The translations under genes were made by a program, and so were the position numbers. This document shows, piece by piece, positions 26,464 through 37,087 of a stretch of DNA of 64,000 nucleotides (position 1 is the stretch's first letter; every line of letters begins with the position of its first letter). Source of the DNA: Deltaproteobacteria bacterium HGW-Deltaproteobacteria-18 (GTDB taxonomy: Bacteria > Desulfobacterota > Desulfovibrionia > Desulfovibrionales > Desulfomicrobiaceae); contig PHBE01000004.1 of NCBI GenBank assembly GCA_002841885.1, forward strand, positions 124,001-188,000, in the 5' to 3' direction. The notes beneath the pieces were generated by a model. The model was not told the origin of the DNA, ran no database searches, and worked only from the letters and a program-made list of their open reading frames with translations.

Positions 26464-27300
26464 TCACTTTCCTTCCTCCCCCCAGGCCTTGCGGCTGCGG
26501 ACGATCTTTTTCCGCGTCGTCTCCCAGGTATGCATCTTCAGAAAAGAATCCGGATATCTTTCGAGCATATCGCAGAACATCCCCCATGGCACGGTGAAGG
26601 ACAACTCGTCGGTCTTCAGAAATTTCCTGGCCGAAGGGTCCCAACCGCCAATCACGGCCCTGTTTAGGCCATGTTCAAGATACGTGCGGGGCCAGGTGAC
26701 GATGCCGCCGCAGGCTGCGGCCCAGGGTGAAGCAACCACCTCGGGATCGTTGGTCACGAAGCAGGCCAGCTGGTGCAGGCCGCACAGGGATTCGGGGCGG
26801 GCAAAGAACATGACGACCTCCGGCTCGTCCCCGGCCTCCAGCATGGTCACCGGCTTGACCACGCAGTATTTCGCCTTCGCCGGCACGGGATCGATGATGT
26901 CAAAAATCCTCTCAAGGGCCTCAGGAGACTCACAATAACGTTCCCCCTCGCTCCACCCAGGGATGCCCGAGGACACGTAGCCGATGATGGCGCGCGACTG
27001 GGGCTTGTGGAAGCCCAGAAAGAAGCTCCCGCCGGGGCAGCCGTAGCGTTCGGCCGAGAAATACGATGCCTTCTGCTTGCGCCGCGCACGCCAGATATGC
27101 CCCATGACACAGGAGAAATTGCCGAAGACCTCCTGCCAGTTGACCTCCCCGCGCTCCTCGCGCTCCCGCGTGGGCGGCTGTCCCGGATCGGGGGCGGAGC
27201 CTTCGGGTTCGTCGTCGGTCCAGCACAGGACCATGGGCACCTCCGTCAGTCCCAGCACTTCCAAAAATTCAGGCAACTTCTCCTTGCGCAAACTCTGCAT
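26464..27300 (-). CDS. DUF169 protein
   Basis: A 278-residue soluble protein of the DUF169 family, common in anaerobes and archaea and without a settled function. GAAGGAGG precedes the ATG at 27300 and decides the start over an ATG 33 bases upstream. Visible features: PMVLCWTDDEPEG near residue 22; a CPGG segment near 87; CVVKPVTML and VVMFFARPE blocks; a conserved-looking AACGGIV segment and a basic C-terminus. Cysteines at several of these places hint at cofactor or metal binding. Transcribed alone, convergent with the peroxiredoxin gene. Confidence 0.75.
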   Translation of the reverse strand: MQSLRKEKLPEFLEVLGLTEVPMVLCWTDDEPEGSAPDPGQPPTREREERGEVNWQEVFGNFSCVMGHIWRARRKQKASYFSAERYGCPGGSFFLGFHKPQSRAIIGYVSSGIPGWSEGERYCESPEALERIFDIIDPVPAKAKYCVVKPVTMLEAGDEPEVVMFFARPESLCGLHQLACFVTNDPEVVASPWAAACGGIVTWPRTYLEHGLNRAVIGGWDPSARKFLKTDELSFTVPWGMFCDMLERYPDSFLKMHTWETTRKKIVRSRKAWGEEGK

Positions 27301-27415
27301 GTCGTCCTCCTTCGCGTTTTCGGCCATTTCCACTTGGCATCATGGGATTCGGGATTTACAGTGAGAACTGTAGCCTTGATTGGGAATACCCTGCAACATG
27401 AGAGCAAGGAGAAAC

Positions 27416-28407: not shown

Positions 28408-29487
<1,080 letters not shown>

Positions 29488-29583
29488 CGATTTCATCCTT
29501 TATTTCACACACCGGAAAATCGGAATGCCTGCTTAACAATTATCTACCGAACCGAGAAATTATTTGAGAAAAAAGGCACAAAC

Positions 29584-29609
29584 TTGCCGATTGCGGCAAT
29601 ATTTTGCCG
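29584..29609. promoter_or_regulatory. Candidate upstream activator sites of the TauE operon
   Basis: Three half-sites at ten-base intervals: TTGCCG (29584), CGGCAA (29594), TTGCCG (29604). They form two overlapping palindromes with four-base spacers. The right one matches the perfect palindrome at 28281-28298. They sit about 85-100 bases upstream of the predicted start of transcription, a usual enhancer distance for sigma-54 activators. Confidence 0.65.
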
Positions 29610-29662: not shown

Positions 29663-29677
29663 TGGCATGCTCCTTGC
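29663..29677 (+). promoter_or_regulatory. Sigma-54 promoter of the TauE operon
   Basis: TGGCATGCTCCTTGC matches the TGGCAyG-N4-TTGC consensus with exact spacing. Transcription would start near 29689, about 75 bases before the first gene. Confidence 0.8.
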
Positions 29678-29762
29678 CTAGATAGGGGGTCGGATGCGTT
29701 GTGCATCGTGGTGCTAAATCAATCAATGCTTGAGGAAACGTGTAAACGGGAGCGAAACAGGA

Positions 29763-30752
29763 ATGAAACTGAACACGAAGTGGATGCGAATTCTGGGAGG
29801 GGCCGCAATGGGCGCACTCCTGTTGGTCACTTTGGCTTGGGCGAGCAATAACCCCGAACTCGCGGATGAAGCAGCCAAACAGCTGGCGGAAGCCACGGGC
29901 ACATCTTCAACCCTGCCCTGGTGGGCCTGGCCTACCATCTTGCTGTTTTTCTGTTTTGTGCTTGGCATCATCGCGGTTCTTGCCGGTGTTGGCGGCGGTG
30001 TACTTTACGTACCGCTGGTCAGCGGATTTTTCCCCTTTCACCTTGACTTTGTGCGCGGCGCGGGTCTGCTCGTAGCCCTGGCAGGAGCCCTGGCCGCCGG
30101 TCCCGGTCTGCTCAAACGCAACCTGGCCAGCCTGCGCCTGGCTCTTCCGGTGGCGCTCATAGCCTCCAGTTGCGCCATCGTCGGCGCCTTCCTCGGCCTT
30201 GCCCTGCCGAACCACATCGTCCAGATGTGCCTGGGCGGCACCATTATGGGTATCGCCATCCTGCTCCTGCTCTCCAAGAACACGGCGCGTCCCGTCGTCG
30301 AAAAGCAGGACGCCCTGAGTTTGGCCTTTGGGATGAGAGGCGCCTACATGGAACCCGCCACTGGCGAAATCGTTGAGTGGAAAACCCACCGCACCGTCAT
30401 GGGCCTTCTGCTCTTCATCGTCATCGGCATCATGGCCGGCATGTTCGGACTTGGCGCCGGCTGGGCAAACGTTCCCGTGCTGAACCTGCTCATGGGCGCC
30501 CCGCTCAAGGTCGCCGTCGGCACCAGTAAATTTCTCCTCTCCATCACCGACACCTCCGCCGCCTGGGTTTATCTGAACCAGGGTTGCGTCATTCCGCTCA
30601 TGGCCATTCCCTCCATCGTGGGGTTGATGATGGGTTCTTTCGTCGGCGTGCGCCTGCTTGCCATCGCCAAGCCCACCTTCATCCGCTACATGGTCATCGG
30701 CGTGCTGCTCTTCGCGGGTGGAAAGGCATTGGCCAAGGGCCTGGGCTTCTAA
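29763..30752 (+). CDS. TauE/SafE family anion exporter (first copy)
   Basis: A 329-residue inner-membrane protein with about eight membrane segments in two homologous halves. The half signatures are LAGVGGGVLYVPLVSGF near residue 72 and GMFGLGAGWANVPVLNLL near 228. A signal-like first segment (ending ALLLVTLAWA) precedes. Family members export sulfite, sulfoacetate or related organosulfur anions. The start at 29763 is chosen for GGGAG upstream; an ATG at 29730 is also in frame. It is the first gene of a long operon of sensors and receivers driven by a sigma-54 promoter, suggesting that its substrate or flux is monitored. Confidence 0.82.
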   Translation: MKLNTKWMRILGGAAMGALLLVTLAWASNNPELADEAAKQLAEATGTSSTLPWWAWPTILLFFCFVLGIIAVLAGVGGGVLYVPLVSGFFPFHLDFVRGAGLLVALAGALAAGPGLLKRNLASLRLALPVALIASSCAIVGAFLGLALPNHIVQMCLGGTIMGIAILLLLSKNTARPVVEKQDALSLAFGMRGAYMEPATGEIVEWKTHRTVMGLLLFIVIGIMAGMFGLGAGWANVPVLNLLMGAPLKVAVGTSKFLLSITDTSAAWVYLNQGCVIPLMAIPSIVGLMMGSFVGVRLLAIAKPTFIRYMVIGVLLFAGGKALAKGLGF

Positions 30753-30779: not shown

Positions 30780-31199
30780 ATGAATAAACCCGATACCAAC
30801 GCGCCTGCCGAACAGATAGCATACGCAAACATCCTCTTCTACGGATGCTGGGGCGGCCTCGCGCTCATGCTTGTAACATACGTGCTCTACGTCTCCGGCA
30901 TCATGGACCCCTACGTGTCCATGGATAACGTTATCAAGTACTGGGGATTGCCCGTTGGCCAGTATCTCGCAGACAACAACGTCCCCACCGGCTGGGGCTG
31001 GACAACGCTTCTGTCCAATGGCGATTTCCTGAACTTCCTTGGAATCGCGCTCCTGGGGGGCCTGACCATCGTGGCCTACATCCCGGTCACCCTCACCTAC
31101 TTCAAGAAAAAGGACTTCGTGTTCGCCATTATCGCGCTTCTTGAAGTTCTGGTCCTTTGCTTCGCAGCATCCGGAATCGTCGGAGGCGGCGCGCACTAA
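30780..31199 (+). CDS. Small membrane protein of the TauE operon
   Basis: A 139-residue protein with three membrane segments (about 22-45, 82-102, 112-135) and a short loop rich in Trp/Gly (YWGLPVGQYL, TGWGWTTLL). AAGGAG precedes the ATG, 28 bases after the exporter gene. It resembles the small DUF1634-like membrane proteins that accompany TauE-type permeases, but assignment to that family is from memory of general layout. It may be an accessory subunit of the exporter. Confidence 0.65.
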   Translation: MNKPDTNAPAEQIAYANILFYGCWGGLALMLVTYVLYVSGIMDPYVSMDNVIKYWGLPVGQYLADNNVPTGWGWTTLLSNGDFLNFLGIALLGGLTIVAYIPVTLTYFKKKDFVFAIIALLEVLVLCFAASGIVGGGAH

Positions 31200-31210: not shown

Positions 31211-32443
31211 GTGCTCAAACGGATTGAAGACCTGATCGGCACCGATTGCCCGGACCTGCCATCCCTGCTGGATGGGCTGCCCGTTGGGGTGGTCCTTCTG
31301 GACAACAAGGGGCATGTCCTCATGCTCAACAAGGCCCTCGAAGCCCTGACCGGTTACAGCCGGGAAGAAGTGCGCGGACTGCCTTGCCGGCACGTCCTGC
31401 GCAGCCGGGCCTGCCTGCAGGACTGTCCACACGGGAGCGAAGCGGTTCCGGGTGTCGGGATCGAGACCGATTGCATCAACCGGCACCATCGCAAGATTCC
31501 CGTCCGCATCACTCCGGTACGCGTTCTGGATGGAAACAACCGTCCGATCTGCGTGCTGGATGTGGTGGAAGAGCTGACGGCCTTGCGGGAAATCGAAGCA
31601 CGCCTGTCCCAGGTGGCGGACCATGGCCAGATTGTGGGGCGCAGTCCGGCCATGAAAAAGATTCTCGGCCTCGTGCCTGTCATCGCCCAGCACGACACTG
31701 CCGTGCTGATCACGGGCGAGACCGGCACAGGCAAGGATCTTCTGGCCGAATCGGTCCACAAGGCTTCGCCCAGATCTCGCGAACCCTTCGTGCGATTCAG
31801 TTGCGGCCCCATGCCCTCAGAACTGCTCGATGCCGAATTGTTCGGACGCATGCAGGGACCAGACGGAAAGCTCAAGCCTGGCCGGTTCCAGCAGGCTCAG
31901 GGAGGAACCCTCTACCTGTCGGAGATAGCGGATCTGCCACTTGCGCAGCAAAGCAGCCTGGTCAGATTTCTGGACGAAGGCACCATCGTGCCTGTCGGCG
32001 CGGAAAAACCCATGCGGGCCAACGCCCGGCTCATGGCTTCCACAGCCGAGACACCGGAGAAACTGGTGCAGGAAGGACGTCTGCGGGAGGATCTTTTCCA
32101 TCGCATTGCAGCCATCCGCCTGCACCTGCCGAGGCTCAAGGATCGCGGAGAGGACCTGAGTTTTCTGCTGCATCATTTCATGGGCCATTATGCGACGCGT
32201 TTCAAAAAGGACATCACCGCCATAAGCCCAAGAGCCCAGCGCCATGTATATGCCCACGATTTCCCGGGCAACGTTCGTGAACTGAAGAACATCATGGAAT
32301 TTGCCGCCATGGTCTGCAATGGCGACACCATCCTGACCGAGCATCTTCCCATGCATTTGACGGACGGCGCCGAAACCGAAGCGCCTGTCCGGCCGGTGGA
32401 GAAAAGCCGCAAGGCCGGTCGCAAGAACACGGAGGAGCGATAG
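31211..32443 (+). CDS. PAS-AAA+ protein related to sigma-54 activators, lacking GAFTGA and HTH
   Basis: 410 residues from a GTG preceded by AAGGAGAGG. Residues ~15-120 form a PAS domain with four cysteines (CRHVLRSRACLQDC), a possible metal or redox site. Residues ~140-365 form the AAA+ domain with Walker A GETGTGKD. The sigma-54-contacting loop is replaced: LFGRMQGPDGKLKPGRF stands where LFGHE-GAFTGA-GRF is normal. Walker B reads TLYLSEI instead of TLFLDEI. The usual C-terminal Fis HTH is absent; the protein ends in a basic tail. It probably cannot open sigma-54 promoters alone and may be a sensor or antagonist within this system. Confidence 0.8.
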   Translation: MLKRIEDLIGTDCPDLPSLLDGLPVGVVLLDNKGHVLMLNKALEALTGYSREEVRGLPCRHVLRSRACLQDCPHGSEAVPGVGIETDCINRHHRKIPVRITPVRVLDGNNRPICVLDVVEELTALREIEARLSQVADHGQIVGRSPAMKKILGLVPVIAQHDTAVLITGETGTGKDLLAESVHKASPRSREPFVRFSCGPMPSELLDAELFGRMQGPDGKLKPGRFQQAQGGTLYLSEIADLPLAQQSSLVRFLDEGTIVPVGAEKPMRANARLMASTAETPEKLVQEGRLREDLFHRIAAIRLHLPRLKDRGEDLSFLLHHFMGHYATRFKKDITAISPRAQRHVYAHDFPGNVRELKNIMEFAAMVCNGDTILTEHLPMHLTDGAETEAPVRPVEKSRKAGRKNTEER

Positions 32444-32445
32444 CA

Positions 32446-32799
32446 ATGGAACGTCGCGTGCTGATCACCGTCGCCAAGGACGAAATCGCCCCCCGCTTCG
32501 ATCTGACCACCGAAGCGCTGCTGCTGACCATTTCCGAAGGCGGAGAAATCGTCTTGCGCAAGTCCTTTCTTCTGGCTTACGCTTCCGGAGACGAACTTTG
32601 CGATCTGGCCCTTTCGCGGGACATCGGCACCATCGTCTGCGGAGGCATTGAGGACGAGTATTACCACTATCTGCGCTGGAAGCGCATCGACGTCATCGAC
32701 TCGGTCATGGGTCCGGTGGAACGCGTTGCCTCCCGCCTGACGGAAGGAACACTCAAAGCCGGAGACATCCTCTATGACCGGGCAACGGAAACGACATGA
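32446..32799 (+). CDS. NifX/NifB-like dinitrogenase cofactor-domain protein
   Basis: A 117-residue protein of the dinitrogenase iron-molybdenum cofactor family, starting RRVLITVAKDEIAPRFDLTTEAL, where APRFD is the usual opening. A later block, DIGTIVCGGI, also fits. These small domains bind or carry metal-sulfur clusters in NifX, NafY and the orange protein. No nitrogenase genes are near. It sits between the PAS-AAA+ protein and a histidine kinase (2 bases after one, 4-base overlap with the other), so it probably acts in the signalling unit. Confidence 0.7.
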   Translation: MERRVLITVAKDEIAPRFDLTTEALLLTISEGGEIVLRKSFLLAYASGDELCDLALSRDIGTIVCGGIEDEYYHYLRWKRIDVIDSVMGPVERVASRLTEGTLKAGDILYDRATETT

Positions 32800-34511
32800 A
32801 AAAAATCCTGTCCGGCCCCATGGAAGCCATCAAGGCCGATCTGGCCACGGAGATCAATTCTCCCGACCGCTACAAGCTGTTGCGGCGCAAGATAGTCTCG
32901 CTCATGGCCCTGGTCACCCTGTTGCCGCTGCTTTCGCTGGCTGCAATCAATTATTACGAGCACCAGAGCTCCATGTCGGCCGAAATCCAGGCCCCGCTGC
33001 GAGCGCTGGTGGGCAAGGCCAAGCACTCGTTTGAACTCTTCCTGGCCGAAAGGACCTCGGCGGTAAGTTTCATCGCATCGGCCTACTCCTTCGACGAGCT
33101 TTCCAACGATGCCAATCTGCAGCGCATCTTCCAGGTCATGCGCCGGGAATTCACCGGTTTTGTCGATCTCGGACTCATCGATGCCGCCGGCAACCAGCTC
33201 AGCTACGCCGGCCCCTACGATCTCAAGGACCGCAACTACACTTCCCAGGACTGGTTCCATCAGGTCCAGTTCAAGGGCACCTACATAAGTGACGTGTTCC
33301 TGGGTTTTCGCAAGTTCCCGCATGTCGTCATCGCCGTTCGGCACACCACCGAGAGCGGTCAGTCATGGATTCTGCGGGCCACCCTCGACACCATGCATTT
33401 CGACCGCATCATTTCGGCCATGGGTCTGGAACCGGGTAGCGACGCCTTCCTGGTCAACCGCAGAGGCGTCCTGCAAACCGAGTCCAGGCGCTACGGAAAG
33501 GTGCTGGACATGTTGCCCTTCAGCCTGCCGCCCACGAATTTCGAATCCAACGTGCAGGGCATCCGCGATCCCGATCAAAACGACATCTACATCGCATCGG
33601 CCTTCATCGCCGACTCGGACTTCGTGCTCGTGGCCGTCAAGCTCAAGCCGACGTTCTTCAGCACCTGGTACACGGTACGCCTCGACCTGCTTGTCATCTT
33701 TGTATTCGGGGTCATCTCCATCTTCATGGCCGTATACCGCCTGACCAGCGTGCTCATCAACCGGCTGCAGGAAAGCGATGAGCAGCGATTGGGCGCCATT
33801 CACCAGATGGAGCATTCGCAGAAGCTGTCCTCCATCGGCCGTCTGGCCGCCGGAGTCGCCCATGAAATCAACAATCCCCTGGCCATCATCAACGAAAAGG
33901 CCGGACTCATGCGCGACATCATGGATCTGCGGCCCGACTTTCCGGACAAGGAAAAATTTTCCAGACAAATCGAGTCCATCCTCAGATCCGTGGATCGCTG
34001 TCGGGGCATTACCCACCGCATGCTCAGCTTTGCCAAGCGCATGGACGTCAAGATCGAGATTCTGGACCTGAACGCCGTGCTTGAAGAGACCTTGGGTTTT
34101 CTTGAACGCGAGGCCCAATACCGCAATATCGAACTCAAGCGCGAACTCTCAAAGAACTTGCCGAACATCGCCACCGACCACGGCCAGATTCAGCAGGTCT
34201 TTCTGAACATTCTGAACAACGCCCTGGCGGCCGTGCCCGACGGCGGAAGGATTCTGCTGTCCAGCTGGAACGTGGATGATCACTATGTCGCCATTTCCAT
34301 CGAGGACAACGGCTGCGGCATGTCCGACGAGACGGCCAAAAACATGTTCGAACCGTTTTTCACTACCAAGAAAGAAAAAGGCACCGGGCTTGGCATGTCC
34401 ATCACCTACGGTATCGTCAAACGCCTGGGCGGAGAGATCAAGGTCCAGAGCAAGCTGAACGAGGGCACCACCATGACCATCCTGCTGCCCAAACACCCTG
34501 TGGAAGGTTAA
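32796..34511 (+). CDS. Membrane sensor histidine kinase with periplasmic Cache-type domain
   Basis: 571 residues: membrane segment at ~33-52, a periplasmic region ~55-290 with the fold pattern of a double Cache sensor (DLGLIDAAGNQLSYAGPY, DRNYTSQDWF, KFPHVVIAV), and a second membrane segment ~295-320. No clear HAMP is seen. The DHp helix carries His356 in VAHEINNPLAI, and the ATPase domain has N, G1 and G2 boxes (NNALAAV, EDNGCGMS, GTGLGMSI). Cache sensors of this type bind small organic acids or similar ligands. It overlaps the NifX-like gene by 4 bases and is followed after 2 bases by a receiver, its probable partner. Confidence 0.9.
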   Translation: MKKILSGPMEAIKADLATEINSPDRYKLLRRKIVSLMALVTLLPLLSLAAINYYEHQSSMSAEIQAPLRALVGKAKHSFELFLAERTSAVSFIASAYSFDELSNDANLQRIFQVMRREFTGFVDLGLIDAAGNQLSYAGPYDLKDRNYTSQDWFHQVQFKGTYISDVFLGFRKFPHVVIAVRHTTESGQSWILRATLDTMHFDRIISAMGLEPGSDAFLVNRRGVLQTESRRYGKVLDMLPFSLPPTNFESNVQGIRDPDQNDIYIASAFIADSDFVLVAVKLKPTFFSTWYTVRLDLLVIFVFGVISIFMAVYRLTSVLINRLQESDEQRLGAIHQMEHSQKLSSIGRLAAGVAHEINNPLAIINEKAGLMRDIMDLRPDFPDKEKFSRQIESILRSVDRCRGITHRMLSFAKRMDVKIEILDLNAVLEETLGFLEREAQYRNIELKRELSKNLPNIATDHGQIQQVFLNILNNALAAVPDGGRILLSSWNVDDHYVAISIEDNGCGMSDETAKNMFEPFFTTKKEKGTGLGMSITYGIVKRLGGEIKVQSKLNEGTTMTILLPKHPVEG

Positions 34512-34513
34512 TC

Positions 34514-34906
34514 ATGGATATGAAAACATGGAACATCCTTTTGGTAGACGATGAAGTCGATTTCATCATCACCCTGGCCGAACGACTGGAACTCAGGGGC
34601 GTCAACCCCCGCGTTGTCCATGACGGAGAATCGGCCCTCAAAGCCGTGGCCGACAATGTGCCGCAGGTGATCGTGCTGGACGTCATGATGCCGGGAATGA
34701 AAGGCATCGAGGTACTGCAGAAGGTCAAGGGTGAACATCCGAAGGTCAAGGTCATCCTGCTCACCGGGCAGGGCAAGACGCGCGACGGCATCGAGGGCAT
34801 GCGCCACGGCGCCTTCGCCTATCTGACCAAACCCCTCGATCTTGAAGAATTGATCCGAACCATCGACGAGGCCATAAATTTACCCGAAGGATCTCCAAAT
34901 GCTTGA
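34514..34906 (+). CDS. Single-domain response regulator (receiver 1)
   Basis: 130 residues consisting only of a receiver domain: acidic DDE at 12-14, phosphoacceptor Asp56 in VLDVMMPGM, Thr84 and Lys106 in YLTKPLD. There is no output domain, so it must act by protein contact or as a phosphorelay intermediate. It starts 2 bases after the kinase gene, and the next gene begins inside its last codons (8-base overlap). Confidence 0.9.
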   Translation: MDMKTWNILLVDDEVDFIITLAERLELRGVNPRVVHDGESALKAVADNVPQVIVLDVMMPGMKGIEVLQKVKGEHPKVKVILLTGQGKTRDGIEGMRHGAFAYLTKPLDLEELIRTIDEAINLPEGSPNA

Positions 34907-35525
34907 AATCCCAAAAGAAGCACGCTTCATGGGTGCTGTCACGGCGCAGAACATGCACGAAATGCAAAATATTCTGGCCATCATCCGCGAGTCGGCGGGA
35001 CTCATGGGCGATATTCTCAAGGTCAACTCCAGGGTCGACTTCAAGCACAAACCCAACATGGAGCGCACCCTTGAGAACATCACCTTCCAGGTCGACCGGG
35101 GCAAGGGGCTGCTGGACGCCACCAGCCGGCTCGCCCATACGCCGGATGCGGATCTACTCGAATGCTGCGATTTGACCGCCTTCGCGAAAATTCTGGCCCA
35201 GCTCGCCGATCGTTACGTACGCTTGAAAGGCGTGGCCCTGAACCTGTCAGTCCCGTCCAACGCCCTGCCTGTTTCCATGGGCGCACTGCAGGTACTCATG
35301 AGCGGCTACAAAGCGCTGCAATGGGCGGTGGGCACGGGCACGAAGGAAGGGATCTTGCGTGTCGACCTTGAAGGCGGAACAGACTTTCATGTTCTGACCA
35401 TTTGCCCTCCCGAAAGTGTGACTCCCGACCGGGACGGAGTCGCCGCGCTGGGAGCGATGCTTGAGCCGGGACGCGCGGAGTGGGACGGCAGTCGGCTACG
35501 GCTCTTTTTTCCCGTTCAGCCTTGA
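34899..35525 (+). CDS. Histidine kinase-like protein with degenerate ATPase domain; possible phosphotransferase
   Basis: 208 residues. The first ~75 resemble a DHp helix pair: MHEMQNILAIIRESAGLMGD with His20 aligns well with AHEINNPLAIINEKAGLMRD of the kinase at 32796. The C-terminal half looks like a shrunken ATPase fold, but no N box, DxGxG or GxGL motif is present. This is the architecture of ChpT-type histidine phosphotransferases, which receive phosphate from one receiver and hand it to another. It lies between two receiver genes. Function is inferred from architecture; it could also be a simple scaffold. Confidence 0.6.
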   Translation: MLEIPKEARFMGAVTAQNMHEMQNILAIIRESAGLMGDILKVNSRVDFKHKPNMERTLENITFQVDRGKGLLDATSRLAHTPDADLLECCDLTAFAKILAQLADRYVRLKGVALNLSVPSNALPVSMGALQVLMSGYKALQWAVGTGTKEGILRVDLEGGTDFHVLTICPPESVTPDRDGVAALGAMLEPGRAEWDGSRLRLFFPVQP

Positions 35526-35548
35526 GACCACAATTGCGGTAGGAATAC

Positions 35549-35932
35549 ATGGACGAACCCAGCATTTTGCTTATCGATGACGAAGAGGCTTTCGTGACCA
35601 CGCTGCAAGAGCGGCTTGAGATGCGCGGATTCACGGCCAGAGCGGCGCTTGACGGCCAAAGCGGACTGGACATGATCGCCGAGGAGCCACCCGATGTAGT
35701 CGTGCTCGACCTGCGCATGCCAGGGATTAGCGGCGTGGAGGTATTACGACGCATTCGCAAGCAGTGGCCAGGCCTCCCCGTGATCATGCTCAGCGGACAT
35801 GGATCGGACCTGGACTTTGAAACATGCTCGCATCTCGGAGCGGCGATGTACCACAAAAAACCCCTGGATATCAATACCTTAATAGACAGTGTTCACACCG
35901 TCACCCTAGGCAAGCAACATCTTCTGCGGTGA
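35549..35932 (+). CDS. Single-domain response regulator (receiver 2)
   Basis: 127 residues, receiver only: DDEE near 10-13, phosphoacceptor Asp54 in VLDLRMPGI, Ser82 in MLSGHG and Lys in YHKKPLD. It has no output domain. It is coded 23 bases after the phosphotransferase-like protein and 6 bases before a receiver-kinase fusion. Confidence 0.9.
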   Translation: MDEPSILLIDDEEAFVTTLQERLEMRGFTARAALDGQSGLDMIAEEPPDVVVLDLRMPGISGVEVLRRIRKQWPGLPVIMLSGHGSDLDFETCSHLGAAMYHKKPLDINTLIDSVHTVTLGKQHLLR

Positions 35933-35938
35933 GGCGAT

Positions 35939-37087
35939 ATGGTACGAGTCCTGGTCGTTGACGACGAACGCGATTTCACGGACCTGCTCTCCGAGCGGCT
36001 GCGCACGCGCGGCATGGAGGTCCGGACAGCGTACGACGGCCAGGAGGCACTGGAGGTCGCGCGGACCTTTGCGCCGGAGGTCGTGATCCTTGACATCACC
36101 ATGCCGGGCATGAGCGGGCTGGAAACCATGGACATCCTGCGGGCCGAAAAGCCGGCGCCGGAAGTGATTCTGCTCACGGCGGACACCACGCTGGGCACGG
36201 CTGTCGCCGGCATGAAGGGCGGCGCCAGGGATTACCTGACCAAACCGACGGACATAAACACCCTTGTCGCAGCCATCGGCGAGGCCGAAGGGCGTCGGAT
36301 GGAGACCATGTCCAGACAGCGCATGGCCGAGACGGCCAAGCTTGCCGCCATGGGAGAACTGGCCACGGGCGTGGCCCACGAGATCAACAACCCGTTGCAG
36401 GTCGTGCTCAATGAGGTTGGCTGGATCGAAGAAATCCTGGACGAGTCGACCCTTGAGAACAACAGCCGGGAGCAGATTCTCGAATCCATCGACCTGATCC
36501 GGCGCCAGGGCCTGCGCTGCAAGGCCATCACCTCCAAGCTGCTGACATTGCGCTGCGCCTTGGACGAAAAGGGGGCGACCACGAATCTCCCCGAACTGGT
36601 GCAGGAAGTCCTGGGCGCTCGCAGGAACAGGGTCCAGCAGATAGGCGCAAAGGTCGAACAGCTCTGGCCTGCACAGTTGCACAAAATTCAGCTGCCGAAT
36701 TCGGAATGGGGCCAGGTCCTGGGCAACCTCGTCGACAATGCCCTGGACGCGCTCGAATCGACGCCCGCCGAAGAACGCCTGTTGCGCCTGCAGGGCACAC
36801 TCGAAGACGCCTGGTTGAGTATTTCGGTCCAGGATTCAGGCTGCGGCATCGAAGAGCATCTGCTGACACGAATTTTCGAACCCTTTTTCTCCACCAAGGA
36901 TGTGGGCAAGGGGATTGGACTGGGGCTGGCTATTTGTCACGGCATCATCGAGGCCATGGGAGGGAGCATATCCGTGCGCAGCACGCCTGGGCATGGCTCG
37001 ACCTTCACCATAACGGTGCCCATGGCCGTGCATGAACACAACGAACATAACGGGCCGGAAGAACCGGCATCTGCCAAGGAGGAATGA
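35939..37087 (+). CDS. Receiver-histidine kinase fusion (soluble)
   Basis: 382 residues without membrane segments. N-terminal receiver with DDE at 8-10, Asp52 in ILDITMPGM and Lys in YLTKPTD. Then a DHp helix with His147 in VAHEINNPLQV, and an ATPase domain with NLVDNALDALE, DSGCGIEE and GIGLGLAI. Such proteins accept phosphate at the N-terminal receiver and control or feed the attached kinase, allowing cross-talk between pathways. The last 4 bases overlap the next receiver gene region (ATGA). Confidence 0.9.
   Translation: MVRVLVVDDERDFTDLLSERLRTRGMEVRTAYDGQEALEVARTFAPEVVILDITMPGMSGLETMDILRAEKPAPEVILLTADTTLGTAVAGMKGGARDYLTKPTDINTLVAAIGEAEGRRMETMSRQRMAETAKLAAMGELATGVAHEINNPLQVVLNEVGWIEEILDESTLENNSREQILESIDLIRRQGLRCKAITSKLLTLRCALDEKGATTNLPELVQEVLGARRNRVQQIGAKVEQLWPAQLHKIQLPNSEWGQVLGNLVDNALDALESTPAEERLLRLQGTLEDAWLSISVQDSGCGIEEHLLTRIFEPFFSTKDVGKGIGLGLAICHGIIEAMGGSISVRSTPGHGSTFTITVPMAVHEHNEHNGPEEPASAKEE

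Follow-up and report, generated by a model that had tools for sequence, protein, structure and literature searches.

A PAS-AAA+ homolog of sigma-54 activators without GAFTGA loop or DNA-binding domain, encoded beside an intact divergent activator in Desulfovibrionales

What can a homolog of sigma-54 activators (EBPs) do once it has neither the loop that contacts sigma-54 nor a DNA-binding domain? The question is raised by a gene at 31211-32443 of the window, by which we mean the whole 64,000-nucleotide stretch of DNA analysed here. An earlier reading made from the letters alone (the sequence-only reading) had described the product as an EBP-like ATPase with a replaced and shortened GAFTGA loop, an altered Walker B motif, no DNA-binding domain and four cysteines in a PAS domain, and had proposed a role other than sigma-54 activation, such as redox sensing or restraint of an intact divergent activator.

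The PAS-AAA+ protein and its predicted fold

The gene is the third of its operon, after those for a TauE/SafE permease and a membrane protein, M139. Its GTG start at 31211 is preceded by AAGGAGAGGCTC, with the Shine-Dalgarno AAGGAGAGG immediately 5′ of the GTG, and its stop codon lies at 32441-32443. A Pfam scan of the protein identified PAS, Sigma54_activat (163 bits) and AAA_lid_14 and detected no HTH; the next gene begins 2 bases past the stop. The features are as follows.

31211-32443, + strand: gene for the PAS-AAA+ protein, a disarmed EBP homolog of 410 aa (open reading frame, Pfam and alignment)
31256-31558, + strand: PAS domain, residues 16-116 (PF00989, E 5.9e-11; numbering shifted from an 18-aa longer open reading frame)
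31385-31474, + strand: PAS cysteines Cys59, Cys68 and Cys72 (the C-x8-C-x3-C family signature) and Cys88
31631-32122, + strand: AAA+ (Sigma54_activat) core, residues 141-304 (PF00158, 163 bits; model match to NtrC1)
31715-31738, + strand: Walker A, GETGTGKD (Lys conserved in 61/61 copies)
31847-31879, + strand: shortened stand-in for the GAFTGA L1 loop, RMQGPDGKLKP (alignment and structure model)
31907-31927, + strand: Walker B, TLYLSEI, with Asp changed to Ser and Glu retained (alignment)
32084-32104, + strand: R-finger region, R292/R298 (Arg in 50/61 and 54/61 copies)
32138-32383, + strand: AAA lid including sensor II GNVREL (32267-32284), followed by a basic tail and no HTH

In the alignment the segment from ELFG to GGTL spans 18 residues. 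It is 21 residues long in NtrC1, and equally so in all intact relatives (18/18) and all readable divergent activators (60/60); a search of the rest of the PAS-AAA protein found no GAFTGA anywhere. Walker A, the Walker B Glu, both R-finger Arg and the GNVREL sensor II are retained, and the Walker B Asp is lost. As a description of the protein the sequence-only reading is thus borne out for the loop, the TLYLSEI Walker B, the missing DNA-binding domain and the four PAS cysteines (59, 68, 72 and 88). The basic tail occupies 32384-32440; among HTH-less copies the last 20 residues carry a mean net charge of +3.5, and 45/55 of them have +3 or higher.

An AlphaFold2 model built from a 53-row alignment has a mean pLDDT of 85.7, with most of the AAA part above 90. 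Fold comparison, which effectively covers residues 136-388, matched the model to NtrC1 (1ny5_A; Z 30.3, rmsd 2.1, 246 aligned residues) and to PspF (2c9c; Z 28.9, rmsd 2.4, 240 residues), the two structures that had been suggested for comparison. At the position of the loop the model places two short strands, 213-215 and 220-222, with pLDDT of about 90. The modeled fold is therefore that of an EBP-type AAA+ domain, a likeness that by itself shows no function. Judged from its motifs, the protein keeps a PAS input domain, a predicted ATP-binding site and the elements of EBP-ring assembly; having no L1/GAFTGA loop it would no longer drive sigma-54 RNA polymerase, and having no HTH, which most but not all functional activators carry, it would no longer bind DNA.

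Conservation and stepwise disarming across the order

Searching 297 Desulfovibrionales genomes with M139 gave 118 positives, and the loci of all 117 other positive genomes were fetched: 61 carry the PAS-AAA gene directly after M139 and 56 do not, so that orthologs occupy the same operon position in 61 other genomes among the 297 searched. The alignment holds 61 copies, being 60 of those fetched plus that of the window; L092, which has an in-frame TGA, was excluded. The Thr of GAFTGA is present in 0/61 aligned copies, compared with 18/18 sister paralogs and 60/60 readable divergent activators (one further activator row of the 61 is gapped across the loop and so unread there). Every copy (61/61) has the Walker A Lys and the sensor II Arg. 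The R-finger Arg are kept in 50/61 (Rf1) and 54/61 (Rf2) copies, the switch Asn in 32/61, the sensor I Asn in 15/61 and the Walker B Asp in 0/61. An HTH was recognized by sequence motif in 6/61 copies, and by Pfam the sole HTH_8 match among 10 selected copies was one of GAFPGA type. Within the window's own genome, the two weakest of 45 Sigma54_activat matches were omitted and 41 of the remaining 43 domains were readable (L334 and L341 were unread); among these 41, the PAS-AAA protein alone has no recognizable loop motif. Since it is the single such case there and every one of the 61 aligned copies shares the loss, the missing loop is not a chance event.

The gene is nonetheless maintained. In pairwise comparisons with five relatives its dN/dS is 0.065, 0.066, 0.087, 0.089 and 0.144, and the corresponding values for the divergent activator gene are 0.062, 0.061, 0.063, 0.060 and 0.100. 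Purifying selection acts on the PAS-AAA gene, and the range of 0.065-0.144 led us to reject its reading as a pseudogene. The frame is open across the domains in 60/61 fetched copies, including L091, L097 and L094 with open frames of 404-406 aa; in the L092 ortholog (genome G008) the TGA falls within the PAS domain and may reflect an assembly error, decay or recoding. The family's most degenerate AAA+ site is that of seven copies from genus g21 (L101, L108, L114, L115, L117, L120 and L122), which have lost the R-fingers, reading D and H/E there, and whose Walker B (FFPEL) contains a Pro.

The origin of the disarmed proteins was examined with a tree built twice, on all columns and with the loop and Walker B columns removed. 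With all columns, the PAS-AAA clade (support 99/92) has as its sister group a family of Cys-PAS EBPs that carry GAFTGA and a C-terminal Fis-type HTH, represented by 18 paralogs from the order (L202-L219; clade support 89/88). The first branch within the PAS-AAA clade consists of six copies from genus g24 with GAFPGA and HTH, the rest being supported at 100/98; six copies with a full-length loop of P-W type and no HTH come next, and the remaining 49, mostly with a shorter loop, follow. This order suggests stepwise disarming, from a GAFPGA form that kept its HTH, through loss of the HTH, to shortening of the loop. In the second tree the HTH-less copies stay grouped (98), but copies with a shortened loop and those with a P-W loop do not fall into clearly distinct groups, which makes the last step less sure than the first.

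The same comparison changes how two of the earlier cues are to be read. The intact Cys-PAS EBPs share with the PAS-AAA protein the PAS cysteine signature, a replaced Walker B Asp and the AAA+ core, and differ from it in that all have GAFTGA and a C-terminal Fis-type HTH. Walker B Asp is Thr in 18/18 intact paralogs of the order, and of 13 fetched family members from outside it (L221-L233; L224 unread), 12/12 readable proteins have GAFTGA and LTEI or LTEV at Walker B. Thus, the sequence-only reading had taken as special a change that is ancestral: since intact GAFTGA and HTH relatives already carry Thr, loss of the Asp is not part of the disarming, and for the same reason we rejected it as proof of a dead ATPase. 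Across the phylum the intact family (L202-L219, L221-L233) pairs this Thr (LTEI) with a PAS motif C-x7-9-C-x3-C. The proposal of a special four-cysteine redox site is weakened likewise, because Cys59, Cys68 and Cys72 occur in 57, 56 and 54 of the 61 copies and in 18/18 paralogs, leaving only Cys88 (16/61) as special. Redox or metal sensing by the PAS domain is possible on these residues, and does not follow from them, since the three cysteines are ordinary in the Cys-PAS EBP family.

The operon, its divergent activator and a described counterpart

The surrounding features of the window are as follows.

28408-29496, − strand: divergent intact sigma-54 activator with GAFTGA and HTH_8 and no N-terminal sensor domain (Pfam and alignment)
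29584-29609, no strand assigned: enhancer-like site TTGCCG-N4-CGGCAA-N4-TTGCCG, three half-sites (motif scoring)
29663-29678, + strand: sigma-54 promoter-like TGGCATG-N4-TTGCC ahead of TauE (promoter scan)
29763-30752, + strand: TauE/SafE permease, operon gene 1 (PF01925, 119 bits)
30780-31199, + strand: M139, 139-aa membrane protein, operon gene 2 (weak DUF1634 match, E 0.2)
32446-32799, + strand: NifX-like protein, starting 2 bases past the PAS-AAA stop (weak PF02579 match, E 0.004, below cut-off)
32796-37087, + strand: remainder of the operon, namely a dCache histidine kinase, a receiver, a 208-aa protein, a receiver and a receiver-kinase

For TauE, ATG at 29763 is a likelier start than TTG at 29730, from conservation and the spacing of GGGAG. 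A DUF169 protein is encoded at 26464-27333, some 2.4 kb away from TauE, and the D. alaskensis nitrate cluster likewise pairs DUF169 and TauE.

The divergent activator is intact, as the sequence-only reading had held, and its sequence indicates the absence of a sensor domain in every locus, the stretch before its AAA domain being 23-74 residues in 60 rows, with one partial row counted as 0. It lies upstream in 60/61 fetched PAS-AAA loci, the exception (L135) being a contig end, and in 0/56 TauE/M139 loci lacking the PAS-AAA gene. Genome-wide it occurs in 61/297 genomes, and the sole one without the PAS-AAA gene is G266, where only 0.6 kb of contig remains beyond the activator. The enhancer, TTGCCG-N3-5-CGGCAA-N3-5-TTGCCG at a score of at least 15 of 18, was found in 52/61 PAS-AAA loci (L135 scored on a shortened upstream stretch), 0/55 others and 1/305 shuffles. 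A promoter-like TGGCA...TTGC site follows the enhancer in the window and 15 close loci; a sigma-54 promoter score of at least 10 was reached in 18/60 PAS-AAA loci, 0/56 loci without the gene and 0/60 shuffles, the scan being mostly unclear beyond Desulfomicrobium and genus g23. The NifX-like gene is present in 61/61 PAS-AAA loci and 0/56 of those without. In sum, the activator, the three-half-site enhancer, the NifX-like gene and the PAS-AAA protein co-occur or are all absent. Because the NifX-like gene is as perfectly coupled, this does not single out the activator, and a mirror-tree test over a common set of 58 loci detected no specific co-evolution of PAS-AAA protein and activator (distance-matrix partial correlation 0.03).

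A described system closely resembles this arrangement. The divergent D. vulgaris EBP DVU2956 controls DVU2957-2964 and binds a site with 'three conserved half-sites'; inside that operon sits DVU2960, which is, like the window protein, an EBP with an altered GAFTGA (in its case GAFPGA) encoded within an operon that has an intact divergent EBP (PMC4641369). Purified DVU2956 bound DNA upstream of DVU2957 in a gel shift and DVU2960 did not, and the function of DVU2960 is termed unclear there (PMC4641369). The window locus has the same operon place, a divergent DVU2956-type EBP and a three-half-site enhancer, as described there; it is a probable counterpart of DVU2956/DVU2957-2964 given the layout, the GAFPGA of related copies and the three half-sites, and by these resemblances the D. 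vulgaris counterpart of the window protein is very probably DVU2960. The six GAFPGA and HTH copies of genus g24, inside the PAS-AAA clade, fit DVU2960 by locus and motif; they keep the HTH and a full-length loop, and the window protein keeps neither. Among the eight papers listed in a literature search on six locus names of the cluster, PMC4641369 alone names DVU2960, and the literature searched, with subscription papers outside its reach, held no report of loop and HTH loss across the order. DVU2956 is reported in a review to reduce the biofilm formed by D. vulgaris and D. alaskensis (PMC8586430). A Desulfovibrio 'nitrate cluster' resembles the TauE/M139 pair, and a role in thiosulfate uptake has been guessed for that cluster (PMC4001038); this likeness makes a sulfur-oxyanion signal a reasonable guess, though nothing more than that.

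A proposed regulatory subunit acting back on the activator

There is good support for a role of the protein outside sigma-54 activation, from the loss of loop and HTH across the order under purifying selection and from the gel shift of its probable counterpart DVU2960 (PMC4641369). The earlier suggestion that this role concerns the divergent activator stands in part: the link is supported by shared presence (60/60 assessable fetched loci, with neither gene in the other 56), the conserved enhancer and operon position, and it gains nothing from the distance-matrix test (partial r 0.03). Being kept by selection beside one particular working activator, the protein is probably a sensor for it or a brake on it. 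The reading we favor, while giving it somewhat less than an even chance, is that an EBP paralog has turned from activator into a PAS-carrying, nucleotide-binding regulatory subunit that is made under the divergent activator and acts back on it, a brake being more likely than a co-activator. The activator would switch on the operon, and the PAS-AAA protein would then accumulate and join or cap the AAA+ ring of the activator in response to whatever its PAS domain senses. The likely outcome would be restraint, a sensor-gated brake exerting negative feedback, since the PAS-AAA subunits would bring no sigma-54 loop and probably hydrolyze ATP poorly. The NifX-like protein, translated right after the PAS-AAA protein, may belong to the same sensor unit. 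Two observations speak against this reading: R-fingers are lost in some clades (Arg in 50/61 and 54/61), so that a shared working ring is not general, and a clear sigma-54 promoter consensus was recovered in only 18/60 loci.

Several known systems share parts of this picture. FleT of Rhodobacter (Cereibacter) sphaeroides is, like the window protein, an EBP without a DNA-binding domain, and differs in having no regulatory domain, where the window protein has PAS, and in directing promoter choice in flagellar genes (PMC7175178, PMC11999139, PMC9542535). Its expression depends on FleQ, with which it then forms hetero-oligomers (PMC11999139); for the window protein a like circuit, made under its partner's control, would be inferred. 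FleT is by analogy a precedent for the proposed circuit. Interactions between paralogous EBPs are also known in Azotobacter. The NifL-NifA structure 9qq6 matched the window protein in sequence and fold; NifL is a PAS redox sensor that restrains an EBP by contact and is not known to be an EBP paralog. TyrR, DhaR, HupR, VpsR and YplP are DNA-binding regulators that act without sigma-54, unlike the window protein, which has no HTH. As in the window protein, their GAFTGA is changed or deleted (PMC3162934).

Among other explanations, the protein could be a cytosolic PAS and ATP-binding sensor whose targets are its operon neighbors, the NifX-like protein, histidine kinase and receivers, which it would tune without touching the activator. 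The operon is the same in 61/61 loci, and the partial correlations with the PAS-AAA protein are higher for the NifX-like protein (0.33), kinase (0.31) and receiver (0.30) than for the activator (0.03); however, kinase homologs lie downstream of TauE/M139 in 27/56 loci without the gene, which shows that the kinase can do without it, and the keeping of an entire EBP AAA+ domain would be less obvious. We consider this explanation doubtful, while giving it real weight. A positive co-activator of the FleT kind, joining the activator's ring and needed for or redirecting activation, has the FleQ/FleT circuit as precedent and would account for the conserved assembly residues, but it is unlikely for a protein that brings no sigma-54 loop and whose hydrolysis residues drift (switch Asn 32/61, sensor I Asn 15/61).

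Work outside transcription, as an AAA+ protein acting independently on a new client such as the TauE transporter, would suit the absence of both DNA-binding and sigma-54 features, the invariant Walker A Lys and sensor II Arg (61/61) and the place of the gene after two membrane-protein genes. It becomes quite improbable because the PAS-AAA gene tracks the activator and enhancer and not TauE/M139, which stand without it in 56/117 fetched loci. Hardly credible is a relic in decay: the key EBP features are gone and the L092 copy has its in-frame TGA, but dN/dS is 0.065-0.144, 60/61 fetched copies are open over the domains, and Walker A and sensor II are invariant.

Returning to a regulatory subunit that acts on the activator, it is possible, and we propose it tentatively at about one chance in three, that the functions of a single activator are now divided between two AAA+ paralogs. 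The activator would keep DNA binding and the sigma-54 loop with no sensor, the PAS-AAA protein would keep PAS and ATP binding with no loop or HTH, and the composition of a mixed ring would set the output, making this an order-wide family of pseudo-EBPs in which extant lineages preserve the disarming steps (GAFPGA with HTH, P-W loop without HTH, shortened loop). With these results the odd D. vulgaris protein DVU2960 very probably becomes part of a conserved family with graded losses, tied to DVU2956. If the ring is shared, the loop-less subunits found in nature could be used to ask directly how many loops must contact sigma-54 for an EBP ring to work, and the family would also bear on how a sensorless activator receives its signal.
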